DNA from: Candidatus Competibacteraceae bacterium
Lineage (GTDB): Bacteria; Pseudomonadota; Gammaproteobacteria; Competibacterales; Competibacteraceae
DNA length: 63,510 nucleotides
Reading direction: 5' to 3'
Assembly: GCA_016790045.1 (NCBI GenBank)
Contig: JAEUPW010000094.1
Coordinates: forward strand, 1 to 63,510
The position numbers and the translations under genes were made by a program. Positions 1,098 through 60,774 of this stretch are shown piece by piece (positions within the stretch are counted from its first letter, which is position 1; every line of letters starts with the position of its first letter). The notes under the pieces are model-generated. The model worked only from the letters and a program-made list of their open reading frames with translations, was not told the origin of the DNA and searched no databases.

Positions 1098-3233
1098 TCA
1101 GGCGTAATCGTCCACGACCCCGTTCAGGCCGCGCGCGCGGGGTCGGGATTCCGCCGGTTCAGCCGCCGGTTCCGCTCCGGGAAGGGAGGGCGGGCGATCG
1201 CGGCCATCGCGCTGGCCGTAAGCCGGTTGCTGCCCCGTCCCGGCCTGCTGGCGAGCCAGCGACGGGTCGGCCACCTGCGTCTGGTTCAAATTGATTCCCT
1301 GGGCGTCCAACAGTTCCCGCAGGCGCGGCAAGGCGGTTTCGAGCGCCTCGCGCACGGCGGCCTCGTGGCTGAAGAAGGTCACGTTGGTTTGCTGGTGATG
1401 CAGCGATACCCGGACTTCGAGCGGCCCCAGATCGGGAGGGTTGACCTTGATTTCAGCTTCCTGCACCTGGTTGTTGATCATCCAGTGCAGTTGCTGGCCC
1501 AGGGTTCGCTCCCAATGCTTCTGATGCAAATTCAAAATGTCGGGAGCGCTCGGCAGCAAGGTCGCGGCAGGTGCTTCGGGACGGTTGGAGGCAGCCAGCG
1601 GTCTGGCTTGGGGCAGCGTTCCGCCGGCGGTCAACGCAACGGGCTCGCTCGGGCGGCCATCTCCGCGATCCGGCGCGATGTCCTCAAAGGTGCCAGGCAC
1701 CGCCACCATCGGTTGCTGGCCTAAAGCCGGCGGTCGATCCGCTGAGGTGAAGTTTTTGGCTGCGGCGACCGTCGGCCGCGAGGCGGCCTCCGGGTCGCCA
1801 TCGGTTTCGGGCGATGGCGCATGGCCGATGGCTCCGGCTTCCGCCGACGCTCCCACCCAAGATGGCGAAGCGGCTCCTGTCGCGGTCGACGCAAGAGATG
1901 CCGGGACCGCCACGGTCGAGGCCGGTGTGGGCGCGTGCATCGCCGCCGCCACGACTTCCGCCGCCGGCGAGCGCCTAATCTCGGCCGGGACGGCGGCGTC
2001 GGCGCGCTCCAGAGCCCACCGTATCGATTGATTGGCCAACAAACGCGCGGCCGGCCAGCGTTCGCTCGCTTTCGCTTTATCTTCGGTCCGGGCTGCGGCG
2101 ACAGCGACGGTGGCGACGGCGGCCGTCGCCAGTTCCAGCCGATCCAGCGGCCGAGGGGTGGCCGCATTCTCAACAGCCAACGGCGCTGGCGCGTTGGCGG
2201 TCGCCCGCACGGGCGTCGCCCCGGCCGCGACGGGTGGAACGCCCGAGGGCGCAGCCGCCTGGGATTGAGGGGGGATTGAAACCGCCGCTCGATCCCGCAA
2301 CGGCGCGTCCGACGGCGGCAGGATCGTCGCATCCACCCCACCGCCCGACACTGCCGGCTCGCTCGATTCGGCGGCCTGCGGCGCCAATCCCGGCCCTGGC
2401 GGATTCGCGGCGACAGCCGTTAACCCGGAAGTCGCTGCGGCGGCCTCCAATCCTTGCGACGGCATCAACGGCGCCGGTGGTTCTTGGCCCCTGCCCGCCT
2501 CCATCAGCGGGCGGAGCGCGGCGTCCAATCCCGTCGGGGGCAATCCCCCCGCAGTTTCGGGCATCGGCGCGACGGCGGTTGCCGCCGGTTTCATGACCGT
2601 TGCGGCGTCGGCGATCGGTTCGCCGTTCGACCTGACCGCCGCGCGTGCGCCCGTCAACCGAGCCGAGGCGGAACTCGACCACAGCAGCGAGCGCAGCCGC
2701 TCGGAATCGCCCGCCGCGATGCCCGCCGTTTCGGTGTCCGTCGCGGAATCGGCGCTCGCGATGTCCTCCTGACGCAGCGCTGCCCGAGCGTCCATGACCA
2801 GCGGCAACCCCAGCCAGGGCGGTTCGGCCGCGAAATCATCGCCGGCATCAGCCAAGCGATCGTCCGCATCGGTTTCGGCGACCGGCTCTTCCACCGCGCC
2901 GGCTTCATCCGCGCTCGCCGCCGCCGCGCCTGCGGTCAAAGTGATGGCGAGCGCGGCAATCTCGGCCTTGCCGGGATCGACCGCGGGCGCGGCGATCGCG
3001 GCGGCTGGCGCAGCCGCAGCCGGAGAAGTCGCGGCGGCCCCGGCAACGTCACCGGGCAGCGCGCCCGCCGCATCGGCCGCCGGATTGGCCGGCGCATCCG
3101 ACTGGAGCCATTGGCTGAACGAAAACGGTGAAACGCCGGCCGGCGCGCCGCCCTCGACGCCGGCTCCCGCCGCGACCGGCTTGGCGGCCGCGCCGTTGGC
3201 CGCTAACACATTAGCGAGTTCAAGCTGGGCCAT
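1098..3233 (-). CDS. fliK: Flagellar hook-length control protein FliK
   Basis: 711 residues. The first ~560 are a low-complexity Ala/Pro-rich region typical of the FliK ruler part, which is poorly conserved. The C-terminal FliK domain (about 575-665) is recognisable: LHWMINNQVQEAEIKVNPPDLGPLEVRVSL is read there, followed by VTFFSHEAAVREALE and LRELLDAQGI. FliK is secreted during hook assembly, measures the hook and switches FlhB export specificity. Start ATG is preceded by a GGAAAGGA ribosome site. It is the last flagellar gene of the fliEFGHIJK operon here; fliL, which often follows, is absent. Confidence 0.93.
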   Translation of the reverse strand: MAQLELANVLAANGAAAKPVAAGAGVEGGAPAGVSPFSFSQWLQSDAPANPAADAAGALPGDVAGAAATSPAAAAPAAAIAAPAVDPGKAEIAALAITLTAGAAAASADEAGAVEEPVAETDADDRLADAGDDFAAEPPWLGLPLVMDARAALRQEDIASADSATDTETAGIAAGDSERLRSLLWSSSASARLTGARAAVRSNGEPIADAATVMKPAATAVAPMPETAGGLPPTGLDAALRPLMEAGRGQEPPAPLMPSQGLEAAAATSGLTAVAANPPGPGLAPQAAESSEPAVSGGGVDATILPPSDAPLRDRAAVSIPPQSQAAAPSGVPPVAAGATPVRATANAPAPLAVENAATPRPLDRLELATAAVATVAVAAARTEDKAKASERWPAARLLANQSIRWALERADAAVPAEIRRSPAAEVVAAAMHAPTPASTVAVPASLASTATGAASPSWVGASAEAGAIGHAPSPETDGDPEAASRPTVAAAKNFTSADRPPALGQQPMVAVPGTFEDIAPDRGDGRPSEPVALTAGGTLPQARPLAASNRPEAPAATLLPSAPDILNLHQKHWERTLGQQLHWMINNQVQEAEIKVNPPDLGPLEVRVSLHHQQTNVTFFSHEAAVREALETALPRLRELLDAQGINLNQTQVADPSLARQQAGTGQQPAYGQRDGRDRPPSLPGAEPAAEPAESRPRARGLNGVVDDYA

Positions 3234-3272
3234 GTTGCCATCCTTTCCGGGATTGACCGCCGGTTCGTCTCG

Positions 3273-3734
3273 TTAACCACCATCTTCCAAATCCGCCTTT
3301 CGGGCGCTCGAACCGCGCAGGTTGCGCTCGTCGCTATCCCGTTGCTCGCGCTGGTCCTCGCGCCGGGCGCAGGCTTTTAGATCGCGCGCCAGCACCTCTT
3401 CCAGCGCCTTGGTCTTGGCGTGGGTCTGGACCCATTCCTGCCGCCGGCGCTGGATTTCTTGCTGGAGCCGCTCCAGTTGATGCCGCGATTGGGTGATGCC
3501 CAAATCCAGGTTGTTCAAAAACGCCGAATAATCCCGAAAGCGGCGCGCCGAAATCCCGCCGCCCTCGTTTTGAAACTGCGTCGCGTACTCGCCCCGGAAC
3601 AGCATCAGTTGCTGCACGCGATGCTGTTGTTCGGCCAGCCGCTGCTGCGATTCCGTCAGCCGCTTGGCCGCTTCTTCCTCGCGCGCTTGCGCGACCTGGA
3701 CCGCCGCCTGCAAAGGATGGGCTTTGCGCGCCAT
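3273..3734 (-). CDS. fliJ: Flagellar export chaperone FliJ
   Basis: 153 residues, almost entirely helical with coiled-coil heptads rich in Gln, Glu and Arg (for example AREEEAAKRLTESQQRLAEQQ near residue 18). FliJ family members stand like a stalk in the FliI hexamer and help couple export to the proton motive force. It lies 11 nt downstream of fliI and 39 nt upstream of fliK, the standard position. Identification rests on size, coiled-coil character and operon position more than on motifs. Confidence 0.92.
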   Translation of the reverse strand: MARKAHPLQAAVQVAQAREEEAAKRLTESQQRLAEQQHRVQQLMLFRGEYATQFQNEGGGISARRFRDYSAFLNNLDLGITQSRHQLERLQQEIQRRRQEWVQTHAKTKALEEVLARDLKACARREDQREQRDSDERNLRGSSARKADLEDGG

Positions 3735-3745
3735 CGGCTAGCGGC

Positions 3746-5128
3746 TCACCGCCCCTTCCCGTCTTTGGGTCGGGGTTGCAATACCTTTTCGAGGGTTTGC
3801 AAGCTGTCGGCCAAGGTCACCCGCTCATCGGTCTTTTGCATCAAAAATTGTTTGAGCAGCGGATAGTAATCGCGGGCTTCGTCCACCGCCGGATCGCTGC
3901 CGGGCACGTACGCGCCGACATTGATCAAATCGCGGTGCTGCTCGTAGGTCGAATAAATGTGCTTGAACCGCCGCGCCAGTTGCTGGTGGCGAGGATCGCT
4001 GATCTGCGGCATCACCCGGCTGATCGAGGCTTCGATGTCGATGGCCGGATAGTGGCCGGATTCGGCCAGGCGCCGCGACAGCACCACGTGGCCGTCGAGA
4101 ATGGCGCGGGCGGCGTCGGCGATCGGGTCTTGCTGGTCGTCGCCTTCGGCCAGCACCGTGTAAAACGCCGTGATCGAACCCCCGACCGCGTCGTTGCCGG
4201 CCCGCTCGACCAAGCGCGGCAGCTTGGCGAACACCGAAGGCGGATAGCCTTTGGTCGCCGGCGGCTCGCCGATGGCCAGGGCGATTTCGCGCTGGGCCTG
4301 GGCGTAGCGGGTCAACGAATCCATCAGCAGCAGCACCTGCCGGCCGGAATCGCGAAAATATTCGGCGATCCGGGTCGCCAGCGCCGCCCCGTACAAGCGC
4401 TTGAGCGGCGGATCGTCGGCCGGTGCCGCCACCACCACCGCGCGGGCCATGCCTTCCGGCCCCAAAATTTCCTGAATGAATTCCTGAACTTCGCGGCCGC
4501 GCTCGCCGATCAGGCCGACCACGACCACCTCGGCGTTGGTGAAGCGGGTCATCATGCCGAGCAGCACGCTCTTGCCGACGCCGGAGCCGGCGAACAGGCC
4601 CATGCGCTGGCCGCTGCCCACCGACAGCAGCGCGTTGATGGCGCGCACGCCGACATCGAGCGGCTCGCGGATCGGTTTGCGCAGCAAGGGATTGATCGGC
4701 TCGCCGCTCAGCGACACCCAATCGAGGCGCTGCGGGGGCGGCAAGCCGTCCAGAAACCGGCCGGAGCCGTCCAGCACCCGCCCGAGCAGGGCGTCGCTCA
4801 CCGGCACCTGGCTGACGCCGCCGGTCGGAATCACCCGCGCGTTCGGCATCAGGCCGTGGATGTCGCTGCTCGGCATCAGAAACAGGCGGCCGCCGGAAAA
4901 GCCCACCACCTCGGCCTCGAACCGGCCGCCGTCGGGGTTGACCACCCAGCAGCGCGCCCCGACCGGGGCCACGCAGCCGGCGGCTTCCAGCGTCAGGCCC
5001 ACCAAGCGGGTCAACTGGCCTTCCACCACCAGGCCCGGCGTTTCGGCGATCCGCGCCCGGCGCTCGGCCAGCCGCACGCTCCAGCGGTGGACGCGCTCCA
5101 CTTCAGGCGCGTTTGCCAGTTTGCTCAC
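3746..5128 (-). CDS. fliI: Flagellum-specific ATPase FliI
   Basis: 460 residues, full length for the F1-ATPase-beta-like export ATPase of the flagellar type III apparatus. The Walker A loop AGSGVGKS is at 180-187, a Walker B stretch ([15 protein letters not shown]) near 266-280, and the family motif [14 protein letters not shown] follows near 289. It energises delivery of rod, hook and filament subunits at the cytoplasmic face of the basal body, with FliH as its regulator and FliJ as its stalk. Its start lies inside the end of fliH (26-nt overlap), consistent with translational coupling. Confidence 0.97.
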
Positions 5129-55431: not shown

Positions 55432-55765
55432 GTCCTATCTCAAGTTTTATGTCCACGAACACCGCCGCCATCGCGGCATCCTGCTGTACGAATGGCTGTT
55501 GGAGCACGCCAAGCAATCCGGCATTCACGGCGGATCGGCGTTTCGCGCCATCGCGGGTTTCGGCCAGCACGGCGTGTTGCAAGAGGATCACTTTTTCGAG
55601 CTGGCGGGCAACCTGACCGTCGAGGTCGCGTTCGCGGTCAGCGATCTGGAAGCGGACCGGTTGCTGGAAGCGGTCGAGCGCGAAAAGCTGCGCATTTTTT
55701 ACGTCAGGATGCCGGCCGATCACGGGGTGACCTGCGCTGGATCGCCGCCGCCGGGAAAGGCCTAG
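55424..55765 (+). CDS. DUF190 family protein
   Basis: 113 residues. YLKFYVHEHRRHRGILLYEW, then HGGSAFRAIAGFGQHG (about 36-51), is the DUF190 signature, with a PII-like ferredoxin fold. DUF190 proteins are commonly encoded next to crcB and may sense or modulate fluoride transport. The start codon lies in the partial third copy of the repeat. The 3' end overlaps the convergent DUF4105 gene by 4 nt. Confidence 0.88.
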   Translation: MKGSYLKFYVHEHRRHRGILLYEWLLEHAKQSGIHGGSAFRAIAGFGQHGVLQEDHFFELAGNLTVEVAFAVSDLEADRLLEAVEREKLRIFYVRMPADHGVTCAGSPPPGKA

Positions 55766-57726
55766 AAGTACAGGTATAACCCGAGCCCGAACTGGTGCGA
55801 TCCTTCCCCGTAGCGCCAGTCCAGCCCCGCCGCCCAATTCCGATCCAGCGCCACGCGCTGCCGCAGTTCCCAGCGCAGCGCCGTGCCGGTTTCTCCCCGG
55901 CGGTAATCTCGCCATCTGGCTCCCGCCAAGAGTTTCCAAGCCGGTGTCGGTTGCGACAGCAGCCCGGCATCCAGACTCCAACCGACGCGGTGATCGCCCG
56001 CGAAATGGTTTCCCTGTTCGAGCGCTATTCCCGGCAGCGCGAACCAAACCGTGCGCCAGGGCCAGCGACTTTCTGCGGCCATGCCCAACCCGGCGCTTAA
56101 ATCGAGCGCGACGCAATCGCGGCAACCCGTCCGCGAGGAGGCTTCCCAACCGGCGTGAATCCGCCAGGAAGGTCGCGGAATCAGGGTATTGACGGGCGCT
56201 AGCGAGGTGATATCGAGCAAGGTCAGCCGCTCCAGGGCCAGCCGGCCGCCAGACTGATAAAAGCGCACGGCCGCATCCAGGGACTCGATCTGCGCGTGGG
56301 GCGTGTAACCGGCGTCGGCGTCCAACAGATCGTGATAGATGGCCCGCGCGCTGAACTCGACAAATTCCGCGCCGTCGCGTTGGCCGATGCCAAAACCGAT
56401 TCGCCGCGAAGCGTGGCCGCTGTCCGGCCGAGTGGCGTAGGGTTCGACAGGCACCGGTGTCGCGCTGTCCGCGAGACGGCTGCGGGCGATCAGGAGGCGA
56501 TGCGCGCTTTCATCGGGCGGCGGTTCGCGCCCCTTTTCGATCTTGTCGGCGCGCCGATACTGGCGCTCGTCCAGCGCCAGTTCCAGCAGCAGCGCCCGCC
56601 GTTGCGGTTTCAGGCGCGCGAAGGCGGGCGTTTCGGTCAAATCCGGATCAGACCGCAACCGCTGAGCCCAACGCCGTTCCTCGGGAGTTAAAGCCTGATA
56701 GCGGCGAGCGATCACCGTGCCGCGCGCGGGACGGGCGGCCGCTTTCCCCAACCGTCCTTTCTGGTCCAAGCGGCGCAGAGTGTCGGCCGGCAGCGCCCAC
56801 AATGCGAATCGATCGCTCAGCGCCAATGCCGGATCGGCAGCTTCCAACAACGCCAGCATTTGCCAGGCGCAGTTTTCTCGCAAAAAGTAATAATCGAAGT
56901 GGATTTGGCGCAACTCCCAAATGTGTTCGAGCAAGCGCCGGCGTTGCGGCGCATCGAGATTCAAGCGGTATTCCCAGATATCGCGACTCTCCAGATCGCT
57001 GTAGGTGCGGACCAGTTGATCGTAGGGCTGGACGTGGAATTGACCTCTGAATCGGCCGCTGAGCCCGTCCAGCGCGTAGCTCAGCACGGTGCTGCCGGAG
57101 TCGTCGGCGGCGTAGTTGACGGCGTAAGCCAGCAGGCGGGTCCGCTCGGTCTGGCCGCGCCGATCCAGCCGCAGAAAGGTGTGGCCAAACAGCGAGGCGG
57201 GATTGTTGAGATAGGCCGAGGCAAACACCAGGGTCACGGATCCGACGTCCAATTCGCGAAACCACTGGCGAAAACGGGCGCAATCGCGCGCCGGCAGTCG
57301 ACGGCCGTCGAAATTCAGCCGCGATTTCAGCCAGCGGTAGCGAGCGATAAACGCGCACTGGGCCGGTTGGGGATCGCCGCCGACCGGATCGGTCACGAAA
57401 AAAAACCGCAGCGTGGCGGCCAGTTCGGCGCGCGGGTCGGTTTTGCCGTCCGGAGCGAGGAAAAAGCGCGGATCGTCGACATCGCTGACCCATCCGCTGG
57501 CGCCGGACCGGTAATGCAGCAGCGTTTGCCACTCGCGCTGTTGGGCCAGTTCCGCCATGGCCGCTCGGTCCAGCAACTCCTGCAAATAAATCAGGTCAAT
57601 AGCGGCGCGGGCGTCCGCCGCCCAGAGCCACCCGCCGAGCAATAACCCGACTGCGAGTCGCGCGATGGAGATCAGCGGTTTTAGTTCGCGCTCAAGCGCG
57701 GGCCGAATCGCGGATCGGCTCGCCAC
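55762..57726 (-). CDS. DUF4105 domain-containing membrane/periplasmic protein
   Basis: 654 residues. Signal peptide (about 17-41), then a large domain with DSGSTVLSYALDGLSGRFRG and YSDLESRDIWEYRLNLDAPQ and the YYFLRENCAWQMLALLEAA stretch typical of DUF4105 (Lnb N-terminal-like). The C-terminal ~170 residues are beta-rich and could be a barrel. Function unknown; some relatives act on N-acyl or sugar substrates. The start overlaps the preceding lipoprotein gene by 46 nt, consistent with coupling. Confidence 0.85.
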   Translation of the reverse strand: MASRSAIRPALERELKPLISIARLAVGLLLGGWLWAADARAAIDLIYLQELLDRAAMAELAQQREWQTLLHYRSGASGWVSDVDDPRFFLAPDGKTDPRAELAATLRFFFVTDPVGGDPQPAQCAFIARYRWLKSRLNFDGRRLPARDCARFRQWFRELDVGSVTLVFASAYLNNPASLFGHTFLRLDRRGQTERTRLLAYAVNYAADDSGSTVLSYALDGLSGRFRGQFHVQPYDQLVRTYSDLESRDIWEYRLNLDAPQRRRLLEHIWELRQIHFDYYFLRENCAWQMLALLEAADPALALSDRFALWALPADTLRRLDQKGRLGKAAARPARGTVIARRYQALTPEERRWAQRLRSDPDLTETPAFARLKPQRRALLLELALDERQYRRADKIEKGREPPPDESAHRLLIARSRLADSATPVPVEPYATRPDSGHASRRIGFGIGQRDGAEFVEFSARAIYHDLLDADAGYTPHAQIESLDAAVRFYQSGGRLALERLTLLDITSLAPVNTLIPRPSWRIHAGWEASSRTGCRDCVALDLSAGLGMAAESRWPWRTVWFALPGIALEQGNHFAGDHRVGWSLDAGLLSQPTPAWKLLAGARWRDYRRGETGTALRWELRQRVALDRNWAAGLDWRYGEGSHQFGLGLYLYF

Positions 57727-58088
57727 TCCCGCTCCAGCGTGGCCAGCATTTCAACCGCGCTGGTGCGCTCGCTGGGGAACAGCGCGCTGAATTTAGCCTG
57801 CGCCATTTTAAAAAATGCCGGTTGACGGGTCGGCTCGATAGCCATCAGCGTCGCCAGAGAGCTGAGATATTCTCCCCCTCCGGCCGCCATATCGCCGCGC
57901 AGCCGCTCCAGATTGAGCTTGGCGAATTCGACGGTCCGATCCTGGCGGTTTTTGGAGGCGGCAGCGCCCGAACCGCTGGAGCCGCTGCTGGCGGCGCTGG
58001 CCCCGGAACTGGGATCGGAGACGATGGTGCAAGCGCCGAGGGCGAACCCCAGCGCGGCGGTTAAGGCGGCATTAAGCAAAGGTTTCAT
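57681..58088 (-). CDS. DUF3015-like lipoprotein
   Basis: 135 residues with a lipoprotein signal (ALGAC, Cys 20) and Ser/Gly linker, then VEFAKLNLERLRGDMAAGGG and EYLSSLATLMAI, the DUF3015 motif. It is the gene upstream of DUF4105 and overlaps it; this pair recurs in proteobacteria (inference from general knowledge). Function unknown. Confidence 0.75.
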   Translation of the reverse strand: MKPLLNAALTAALGFALGACTIVSDPSSGASAASSGSSGSGAAASKNRQDRTVEFAKLNLERLRGDMAAGGGEYLSSLATLMAIEPTRQPAFFKMAQAKFSALFPSERTSAVEMLATLEREWRADPRFGPRLSAN

Positions 58089-58128
58089 AGCTTTTTCTCT
58101 TAATGGGGTCGGTTATTATGGCAAGGCC

Positions 58129-58239
58129 ATGCTGGCTTTAGACTCGAGGCCCTTGTCCCCGAAACAGTGCTCACCGGTGAATTCGCCTAAGTTTAATAGG
58201 AATCTTTTGCCGCCGGCAGCGTTCCCTGTTCCTTTTTAG
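58129..58239 (+). CDS. Candidate 36-residue peptide ORF upstream of the radical SAM gene
   Basis: ATG at 58129 to TAG at 58239, 14 nt before the radical SAM start. The peptide has one Cys, several Ser-Pro steps (RPLSPKQCSPVNSPKFN) and a Phe/Pro-rich end (PPAAFPVPF). Its position and composition fit a peptide substrate for the enzyme, but only a weak AAGG ribosome site is present two nt before ATG, and no homologue can be checked here. Confidence 0.3.
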   Translation: MLALDSRPLSPKQCSPVNSPKFNRNLLPPAAFPVPF

Positions 58240-58253
58240 TCGGAGCCATCCGC

Positions 58254-59399
58254 ATGAAAAGCCATATCTCGCTGATCCTGCTCTCCACCCTGCAATGCAA
58301 CGCGGATTGCGAATACTGTTTCGAGAACAAAACCACCGATCGGCTGACGCTGGATCGCCTGGGCGAGATGATCCGCAAGGTGCTGGATTACATGGTGGAA
58401 AAGTCGCTGGCGACTTTGAATATTTACTGGCAGGGCGGCGAGGCGATGCTGCTGCCGCCAAGTTGGTACGAGCGGGCTAACGAGCTGATCCGGCGCGAGG
58501 CCGAGGCGCGCGGCAAGCAGGTTTTCCACGGCCTGCAAAGCAACATGCTGTCGTATAGCTCCCGCTGGAACAAGGTCATCGCCGAAATGTTCGGCAACAG
58601 CGTCGGCACCTCGCTGGACTACCCTAACCTTCACCGCAAATTGCTCGGGCAAAGCCCCGATGGCTACAACGAGATTTGGGCGCGGCGGGTGCGCGAGGCG
58701 CGCGCGGCCGGCATCGAAGTCCAAGTGATCGCGGTGCCGAACAAAGCGACCTTGGAGATCGGCGCGGAACGCTTCTACAGCCATTTTGTGGACGAACTCG
58801 GCATCACCGACTTTCAGGTCAACACCCCGTTTCCGGGCGGTGCGGAAACTGCCGCCAAAAAGGAATTGCCGGTGGCGGAAGTGGAAAAACTCAGCCGCTT
58901 TTACCGCGAATTGGTCGACATCTGGCTGGAGCGCGGCTACCGCAACGGCGTGAGGGTCGGCCCGCTCGATGCTTTGTTGCAACACTTCAGCCACCAACCG
59001 ACCACGCTGCCTTGCATTTGGGGCGACAATTGCGCCAACACCATGGTGTCGATCGACGCGCGCGGCTACGTGGCGCAATGCGATTGCTGGGTCACCAGCT
59101 ATCCCGATTACCACTTCGGCAACATCTTCGAGTGCGACAATTTCGGCGAACTGTTGCGCAATAGCCCGGCTCGGCAAAAATTCAACGAGCGGCCGATCCA
59201 ACTGATCCAGCGCGATTGCTTGAGCTGCGATTATTTGTCGCTCTGCCACGGCGGCTGCCCGGTGCGGACTTACACTGTGCATGGTACTCTGTTTGAAAAA
59301 GACCCTTATTGCGGTCTTTACAAAACCATGTTCGGGCGCATGGAGCGCGCCGCGCGGGAACTGGCGCGCGAAGCCGCCTCTCGGAGCGTGGCGGCCTGA
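58254..59399 (+). CDS. Radical SAM/SPASM enzyme, peptide maturase type
   Basis: 381 residues. The radical SAM cluster CX3CX2C is Cys15-Cys19-Cys22; GGE at 61-63. The C-terminal SPASM cluster motif is exact: Cys260-X10-Gly271-X4-Cys276, then Cys322-X2-Cys325-X5-Cys331-X3-Cys335 and Cys353. Such enzymes modify peptides or act as sulfatase maturases; no sulfatase is nearby. Followed by two palindromes and a cupin. Start ATG has GGAG nine nt upstream. Fine substrate class is unknown. Confidence 0.9.
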   Translation: MKSHISLILLSTLQCNADCEYCFENKTTDRLTLDRLGEMIRKVLDYMVEKSLATLNIYWQGGEAMLLPPSWYERANELIRREAEARGKQVFHGLQSNMLSYSSRWNKVIAEMFGNSVGTSLDYPNLHRKLLGQSPDGYNEIWARRVREARAAGIEVQVIAVPNKATLEIGAERFYSHFVDELGITDFQVNTPFPGGAETAAKKELPVAEVEKLSRFYRELVDIWLERGYRNGVRVGPLDALLQHFSHQPTTLPCIWGDNCANTMVSIDARGYVAQCDCWVTSYPDYHFGNIFECDNFGELLRNSPARQKFNERPIQLIQRDCLSCDYLSLCHGGCPVRTYTVHGTLFEKDPYCGLYKTMFGRMERAARELAREAASRSVAA

Positions 59400-59420
59400 G
59401 CATTCCGCCGCGCCGAACGT

Positions 59421-59436
59421 TATTCCACGTGGAATA
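59421..59436. promoter_or_regulatory. 16-bp palindrome, copy 1 (downstream of radical SAM gene)
   Basis: TATTCCACGTGGAATA, perfect palindrome, 22 nt after the radical SAM stop and 91 nt before the cupin start. Identical to copies at 59449 and 60752. Its half-site resembles parS (GTTCCAC) with A at the first position, as in the Noc site. Confidence 0.85.
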
Positions 59437-59448
59437 GCCGCGCCGCTT

Positions 59449-59464
59449 TATTCCACGTGGAATA
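59449..59464. promoter_or_regulatory. 16-bp palindrome, copy 2
   Basis: Same 16 bases, centre 28 nt from copy 1 (not quite three helical turns). In RNA the two copies could also pair with each other around a 12-nt loop, a possible transcript end for the radical SAM gene. Confidence 0.85.
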
Positions 59465-59526
59465 TTCTCCAGCCCTCCAAACCCCTCAAGCTTTTTGCCG
59501 CCCGGACTCCGGCAGGGATCGAAGCG

Positions 59527-59865
59527 ATGTTCAACCCCCAAAGTGACAGCGGCTATCGGCAGTTAGCGGACGGCATCCGGCAAAAGACCCTGAACTTCGG
59601 CGAGCGCACCTTGATGGCGGAATTCAAGCTGGCCCAAGGCAGCCTGCTTCCCGTCCACGCTCACCCCTACGAGCAAACCGGTTACCTGATCTCTGGCCGG
59701 CTTCGGCTCCGGATCGGCGGCGAGGAATTCGCTGCCCGCGCGGGCGATTCTTGGTGCATTCCGGCCGATGTCGAACACGGCGCGCAGGTGCTCGAAGATG
59801 CGGTGGCGATCGAGGTATTCTCGCCGGTGCGCGAGGATTATTTGCCCGCCGATATCCGCTCGTAG
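59527..59865 (+). CDS. Small cupin domain protein
   Basis: 112 residues from ATG at 59527 (AGGGA upstream). The cupin motif LLPVHAHPYEQTGYLISGRL (about 38-57) with two His, Gln/Glu, then IPADVEHGAQVLEDAVAIEV. A single-domain metal-binding cupin of unknown substrate. It stands between two palindromes and the convergent scpB. Confidence 0.9.
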   Translation: MFNPQSDSGYRQLADGIRQKTLNFGERTLMAEFKLAQGSLLPVHAHPYEQTGYLISGRLRLRIGGEEFAARAGDSWCIPADVEHGAQVLEDAVAIEVFSPVREDYLPADIRS

Positions 59866-60751: not shown

Positions 60752-60774
60752 TATTCCACGTGGAATAGTATAGT
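60752..60774. promoter_or_regulatory. 16-bp palindrome, copy 3, beside a -10-like TATAGT
   Basis: TATTCCACGTGGAATA at 60752-60767, in the gap between divergent scpB and the PqaA-like gene; TATAGT follows at 60769-60774 and could be the -10 of the rightward gene. A protein bound to the palindrome would cover this promoter, so repression is plausible. Confidence 0.75.

Follow-up and report, generated by a model that had tools for sequence, protein, structure and literature searches.

A radical SAM/SPASM maturase of Competibacteraceae and its probable glycine-rich W-x-N precursor peptides at unlinked loci

The locus described here raises the question of what an orphan peptide-modifying radical SAM enzyme modifies. 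The window, i.e. the whole stretch of 63,510 nucleotides that was analysed, is the complete contig C73 of assembly G000, a Competibacteraceae MAG of 2.76 Mb that is 75.8% complete and whose relatives are Competibacteraceae, the glycogen-accumulating bacteria of wastewater plants. A sequence-only reading had proposed a peptide-modification locus made up of a 36-codon Cys/Ser-Pro precursor frame, the enzyme and a small cupin. The enzyme kept its place in a peptide-modification system, whereas the proposed substrate and the cupin did not. We consider it likely that the window maturase belongs to a dispersed RiPP system, in which it modifies Gly-rich W-x-N precursors encoded at unlinked loci into cyclophanes. 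The features that bear on this reading are collected in Table 1.

Table 1. Features of the window and of the unlinked loci in the same genome (G000). Positions without a contig name are those of the window.
Feature	Position	Strand	Remarks
Radical SAM/SPASM peptide maturase, 381 aa, the system's enzyme	58254..59399	+	Intact clusters, orthologs, dN/dS
36-codon frame, proposed precursor, judged a non-gene	58129..58239	+	Relatives keep neither start nor stop; no W-x-N
Palindrome TATTCCACGTGGAATA copy 1, just past the maturase	59421..59436	.	Three copies only in the G000 assembly
Palindrome TATTCCACGTGGAATA copy 2	59449..59464	.	
Palindrome TATTCCACGTGGAATA copy 3, between an enoyl-CoA hydratase-like gene and a PhoPQ-related gene	60752..60767	.	
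Small cupin, 112 aa, neighbour, probably outside the system	59527..59865	+	Cupin_2, 52.9 bits
DUF3015 protein, lipoprotein-like N-terminus, divergent conserved neighbour	57681..58088	-	PF11220; syntenic in most orthologs
Large Lnb_N/DUF7840 protein (Lnb), adjoins the DUF3015 protein	55762..57726	-	Family-wide synteny with the maturase
Precursor, SnoaL-like gene beside it	contig C78, 2375-2686	-	Genome G000
SnoaL-like gene beside the C78 precursor	contig C78, 2703-3353		Genome G000
Precursor, partner beside it	contig C138, 13402-13770	-	Genome G000
Partner protein, after the C138 precursor	contig C138, 12544-13368	-	Genome G000

The three open reading frames of the earlier proposal are all present. 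In the 36-codon ATG frame there is a single Cys along with three Ser-Pro, and 14 nt separate its stop from the maturase ATG; the maturase has complete SAM and SPASM clusters, and the cupin matches its family model. The single Cys and the position directly before the enzyme are what speak for the frame as the precursor, with the cupin as a helper. However, when the interval was aligned with six relatives (the same-genus G002, G004 and G005, the named MAG L035, and the same-family G031 and G023), 36-68 of the 111 positions were identical, with gaps, and none of the six kept either the start or the stop. The frame therefore fails as a precursor, as relatives do not preserve it. It forms the end of a longer open frame (57913-58239) and is one of 37 ORFs of at least 20 aa within 2.4 kb, which is not above chance, and no W-x-N motif was found in it. 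Other maturase orthologs have unrelated upstream sequence, and no precursor was found at the position of the frame in the Competibacteraceae orthologs, with the exception of the differently ordered G011 operon. The cupin, for which no PHROG family was found, adjoins the enzyme in just one of the neighbourhoods compared, that of the window. The chance that frame and cupin are precursor and helper is almost negligible; the real precursor family is very probably a Gly-rich W-x-N-R repeat peptide that is encoded on other contigs in the window's genome.

The maturase itself is real, intact and strongly conserved. Its radical SAM motif CX3CX2C is formed by C15, C19 and C22, and an alignment of 14 orthologs shows no variation at the auxiliary cysteines C254, C260, C276, C322, C325, C331, C335 and C353 or at C278; dN/dS was 0.053 against G004 (one pair). 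The enzyme passed the generic SPASM model TIGR04085 (52.1 bits, cut-off 27) and, among the best 25 NCBIfam families listed, no named-enzyme cut-off. The best of these by E-value was the anaerobic sulfatase maturase (anSME) model TIGR03942, which the enzyme matched at 133.5 bits, below the cut-off of 349.45; scores were likewise below the cut-offs for DynA (NF041298; 123.5 bits, cut-off 450), DarW (121.9 bits, cut-off 650), DarE (95.8 bits, cut-off 650) and GrrM/OscB (TIGR04261; 86.9 bits, cut-off 310). The nearest folds in the PDB to its predicted structure (pLDDT 74.5) were anSMEcpe and then peptide maturases, e.g. a sactipeptide enzyme (5why) and ChlB. These results agree with the sequence-only reading in placing the enzyme among the peptide-modifying radical SAM/SPASM proteins, outside the named families and, by the NCBIfam cut-off, apart from the sulfatase maturases.

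An alternative is that the enzyme is an anSME and generates the formylglycine of a sulfatase whose gene lies elsewhere in the genome. The anSMEs (TIGR03942; anSMEcpe 4K36-4K39) give both the closest profile score and the closest fold, their cluster layout is the same, the C276-D277 pair of the maturase aligns with the anSME C-D pair and, as G000 is 75.8% complete, a sulfatase could be missing from it. However, the profile score is far below the cut-off and the two sulfatase-fold proteins that were found in G000 both lack the C/S-x-P-x-R motif, and for these reasons sulfatase maturation is unlikely. Furthermore, the cluster of the Geobacter contig L046 that contains its maturase ortholog also encodes a separate TIGR03942 protein, which scores above the cut-off at 485.8 bits, and, unlike anSMEs, the maturase co-occurs with W-x-N precursors. 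We leave the sulfatase reading only a slim chance.

Searches of related genomes located maturase orthologs in 26 of 59 relatives, all of them Competibacteraceae (E ≤ 1e-30), with full-length matches of 78-92% identity within the family. Orthologs with 57-59% identity were present in two Geobacter MAGs; within the order of the Geobacter MAG the maturase was found in 2 of 141 genomes, and it was absent from the other genomes among the 398 Pseudomonadota sampled (both at E ≤ 1e-60). Viral contigs gave no match to the maturase, its relatives on plasmids were all below 60% identity (28% for the best among the matches listed), and its PHROG matches were a generic radical SAM family and one unknown family only. 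Two contigs titled Phycisphaerales (L030) and Synechococcaceae (L042) carry maturase orthologs of 85-88% identity; these titles look misassigned, because the matching contigs belong to the same-family genomes G031 and G035.

Of the 26 Competibacteraceae genomes that encode the maturase, 15 have a precursor-type gene next to it, as does one of the two Geobacter MAGs. In 14 of these 26 the precursor lies at most 2 kb downstream on the same strand, and in one more (G011) it lies upstream. Among the other 11, the neighbourhood is ended by a contig edge in three (G004, after 532 nt; G031; G036), and in eight, including G000, no precursor was found near the maturase with the downstream sequence present, which speaks against the link. 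The Geobacter cluster has a different gene order, i.e. an anSME-like radical SAM protein, a SnoaL/SgcJ-like protein, a repeat peptide of 114 aa in which AWANR/AWVNR occurs seven times, a protein of 292 aa matching no family and, last, the maturase ortholog (57% identical). Precursor, partner and maturase are here contained in one operon. The second radical SAM protein of this cluster (L046, positions 2862-4142), which scores above the anSME cut-off, may be a peptide maturase itself rather than a sulfatase maturase.

The genome of the window encodes two precursors, on contigs C78 and C138, both off the maturase contig. Each precursor of this family has a conserved leader, RRxFLxxLGKWSxxVIGG, followed by Gly-rich W-x-N-R repeats; over 13 aligned sequences the leader consensus is ERRxFLxSLGKWSKAVIGGVLLGG, with the R, R, L, L, G, W and S positions invariant. 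The precursors were first detected via W-x-N patterns, and the density of the motif was determined on a later set of 42 that had been gathered solely through their leader pattern. In these 42 cores (3349 aa), 458 Trp are followed by at least two residues, and 358 of them are in W-x-N; 1000 shuffles gave a mean of 56.8 (sd 6.6) and a maximum of 76. The third residue after the remaining Trp was G in 29 cases, W in 27, D in 20 (W-x-D being the other OscB-type pairing), P in 8, E in 7, Y in 5, S in 2, and Q and A in 1 each, and Cys makes up 0.1% of core residues. One of the 42 (G035, L067) seems degenerate, with W-x-N at 1 of 3 W. Eight precursor pairs, picked from across the genomes, gave dN/dS values of 0.05-0.17, which indicates purifying selection. 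No NCBIfam, Pfam or PHROG family matched them above its cut-off; the best score against GrrA/OscA1 (TIGR04260) was 15.4 bits, below the cut-off of 31, and the AmcA cyclophane-RiPP model was matched weakly, far below its cut-off.

The composition of these cores bears on the chemistry. OscB is described, in a passage of PMC11002830, as a SPASM radical SAM enzyme that joins Trp C7 to the C-beta of Asn or Asp (i, i+2), and a passage of PMC9062424 uses Aro-x-Asn as a mark of three-residue cyclophanes. Because W-x-N is the OscB/GrrM-type substrate motif, we infer that the maturase is an iterative cyclophane (triceptide-like) maturase, and the repeated W-x-N spacing, the Gly-rich spacers and the near absence of Cys make a Trp-Asn cyclophane the most likely reaction. 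The precursors could instead undergo another reaction, e.g. the formation of darobactin- or dynobactin-type Trp-Trp, ether or C-N links, epimerisation or hydroxylation. Since the DynA and DarE models outscore GrrM, other Trp crosslinks are possible; the DynA, DarW and DarE models score just behind anSME, and some cores have W-x-W stretches, which account for the 27 W-x-W given above. On the other hand, the periodic occurrence of isolated W-x-N-R units between Gly-rich spacers fits the OscB i, i+2 pattern, and thioethers are unlikely because of the low Cys content. Altogether a reaction other than Trp-Asn crosslinking is unlikely, although it keeps a real minority share of our expectation.

Co-occurrence links the maturase to precursors that are not its neighbours. 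Among 37 Competibacteraceae, 25 had both maturase and precursor, one had the maturase only, four had the precursor only and seven had neither (Fisher p 2.3e-4; p 1.8e-11 for all 59 relatives), where some of the genomes searched had also supplied precursors for the search profile and related genomes are non-independent samples. For maturase and partner the corresponding numbers were 23 with both, three with the maturase only, four with the partner only and seven with neither (p 0.0026; 2.2e-9 for the 59 relatives). Neither maturase, precursor nor partner was found in the 22 relatives outside the Competibacteraceae. Against the link, four genomes (G001, G006, G016 and G027) have precursors and the partner with no match to the maturase, even by profile at E ≤ 1e-10. 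Three of the four also lack the conserved neighbour Lnb, a pattern that fits a gap; in G006 (C299, L149) Lnb and the DUF3015 gene are kept, with no maturase in 12 kb at the usual site.

These data also bear on the possibility that the Gly-rich W-x-N proteins have a structural or metal-binding role after export and lie beside the maturase by shared synteny only. Their long repetitive cores and Tat-like leader would suit such a role, and the Lnb/DUF3015 side of the maturase locus is likewise conserved by synteny. However, the adjacency of precursor and maturase recurs in Geobacter in a different gene order, and the co-occurrence holds also where the genes sit on different contigs. We regard this explanation as quite improbable and retain the precursors as probable substrates of the maturase.

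The second component of the proposed system is the partner, which adjoins a precursor in most partner loci of other genomes. All 14 aligned members share a C-terminal Cys motif, C-x2-C-x5-C, followed by a C after YFKWP, and no radical SAM CX3CX2C was found in this alignment. A profile comparison with the maturase was weak (probability 35) and aligned the C-terminal Cys region of the partner with the SPASM end of the maturase. The partner reached no family cut-off in Pfam, NCBIfam or PHROG and had no convincing relative in the PDB and no plasmid relative; an AlphaFold model from a two-row alignment had a pLDDT of 42. Its dN/dS was 0.236 (one pair), and it was found in three of 369 Gammaproteobacteria sampled, all Competibacteraceae. 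The SPASM-like motif suggests that the partner probably acts as a recognition or redox subunit. The other gene found with precursors encodes a SnoaL-like protein whose N-terminal part includes a signal-peptide-like stretch, and SnoaL-precursor pairs recur at further unlinked loci. Profile searches gave up to seven precursor matches per genome, some of these matches being several pieces of one repetitive gene.

The leader of the precursors resembles a Tat signal. The C138 precursor scored 10.5 bits against the twin-arginine model TIGR01409, below the cut-off of 16.7, and RR is invariant in 13 of 13 aligned precursors. At the border between leader and core, 35 of the 42 have an A-x-A with a W no more than four residues after it. 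The product is probably periplasmic, because the Tat-like leader is found together with a SnoaL-like protein with a signal-peptide-like N-terminus that is co-encoded with precursors. Taken as a whole, the proposed mechanism would begin with the maturase recognising the conserved leader of precursors encoded elsewhere (C78 and C138), aided by the C138 partner, and acting iteratively on the W-x-N units of the cores. By analogy with OscB, each repeat would acquire a C-C bond from the Trp ring to the Asn beta-carbon and so become a three-residue cyclophane, and the cyclophane product would be exported to the periplasm via the Tat-like leader ending in A-x-A.

The closest known systems differ from this one in several respects. 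GrrM/OscB triceptides with GrrA/OscA1 (TIGR04261/TIGR04260) share the SPASM radical SAM enzyme, a Gly-rich multi-repeat core and aromatic-x-Asn units, and by analogy the same Trp-Asn i, i+2 pairing would be expected here. In contrast to those systems, the present one has the Tat-like leader RRxFLxxLGKWS, a partner with a SPASM-like motif and a SnoaL-like gene, its maturase and precursors are often unlinked, and both profile scores stay below their cut-offs. DynA, DarW and DarE are Trp-centred crosslinking enzymes with the next best profile scores after anSME, but the maturase reaches 123.5 of 450 bits or lower, and the cores here are Gly-rich with many W-x-N repeats. The AmcA/AmcB RiPP also has a multi-cyclophane precursor, to which the weak profile match corresponds; however, precursor and maturase are both far below the respective cut-offs.

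A literature search, whose coverage left out most subscription papers, returned no description of a system of maturase, W-x-N precursor and partner. According to a passage of PMC9765116, the biosynthetic potential of Ca. Competibacter was among the highest of the glycogen-accumulating organisms. The analysis matches an orphan peptide-modifying radical SAM enzyme to probable substrates outside its neighbourhood by way of genomes that have kept the genes together. If the proposed chemistry is true, the Competibacteraceae would contain a new family of cyclophane peptides with many Trp-Asn units per genome, the system would add an unnamed partner protein, and it would be a plausible case of the Tat export of a crosslinked ribosomal peptide. 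A further-reaching version, which we hold only tentatively and with somewhat more doubt than belief, is that this is a distinct class of poly-cyclophane RiPP. In such a class an orphan radical SAM enzyme would serve several unlinked precursors in trans, an undescribed partner with only a SPASM-like cluster would be required, the leader would double as a Tat signal, and the folded, multiply crosslinked Gly-rich product would be exported whole to the periplasm.

A separate observation concerns the perfect palindrome TATTCCACGTGGAATA, all three copies of which in the 2.76 Mb assembly lie at most 1.4 kb from the 3' end of the maturase gene. The form TATKCCACRTGGMATA occurs in 25 of the 59 relatives, all Competibacteraceae, at 0-7 copies per genome. 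Because other copies adjoin varied genes, often as close pairs, we claim no role for TATTCCACGTGGAATA as an operator of the system. A similar palindrome site lies 3' of the maturase in 17 of the 24 genomes with downstream sequence.
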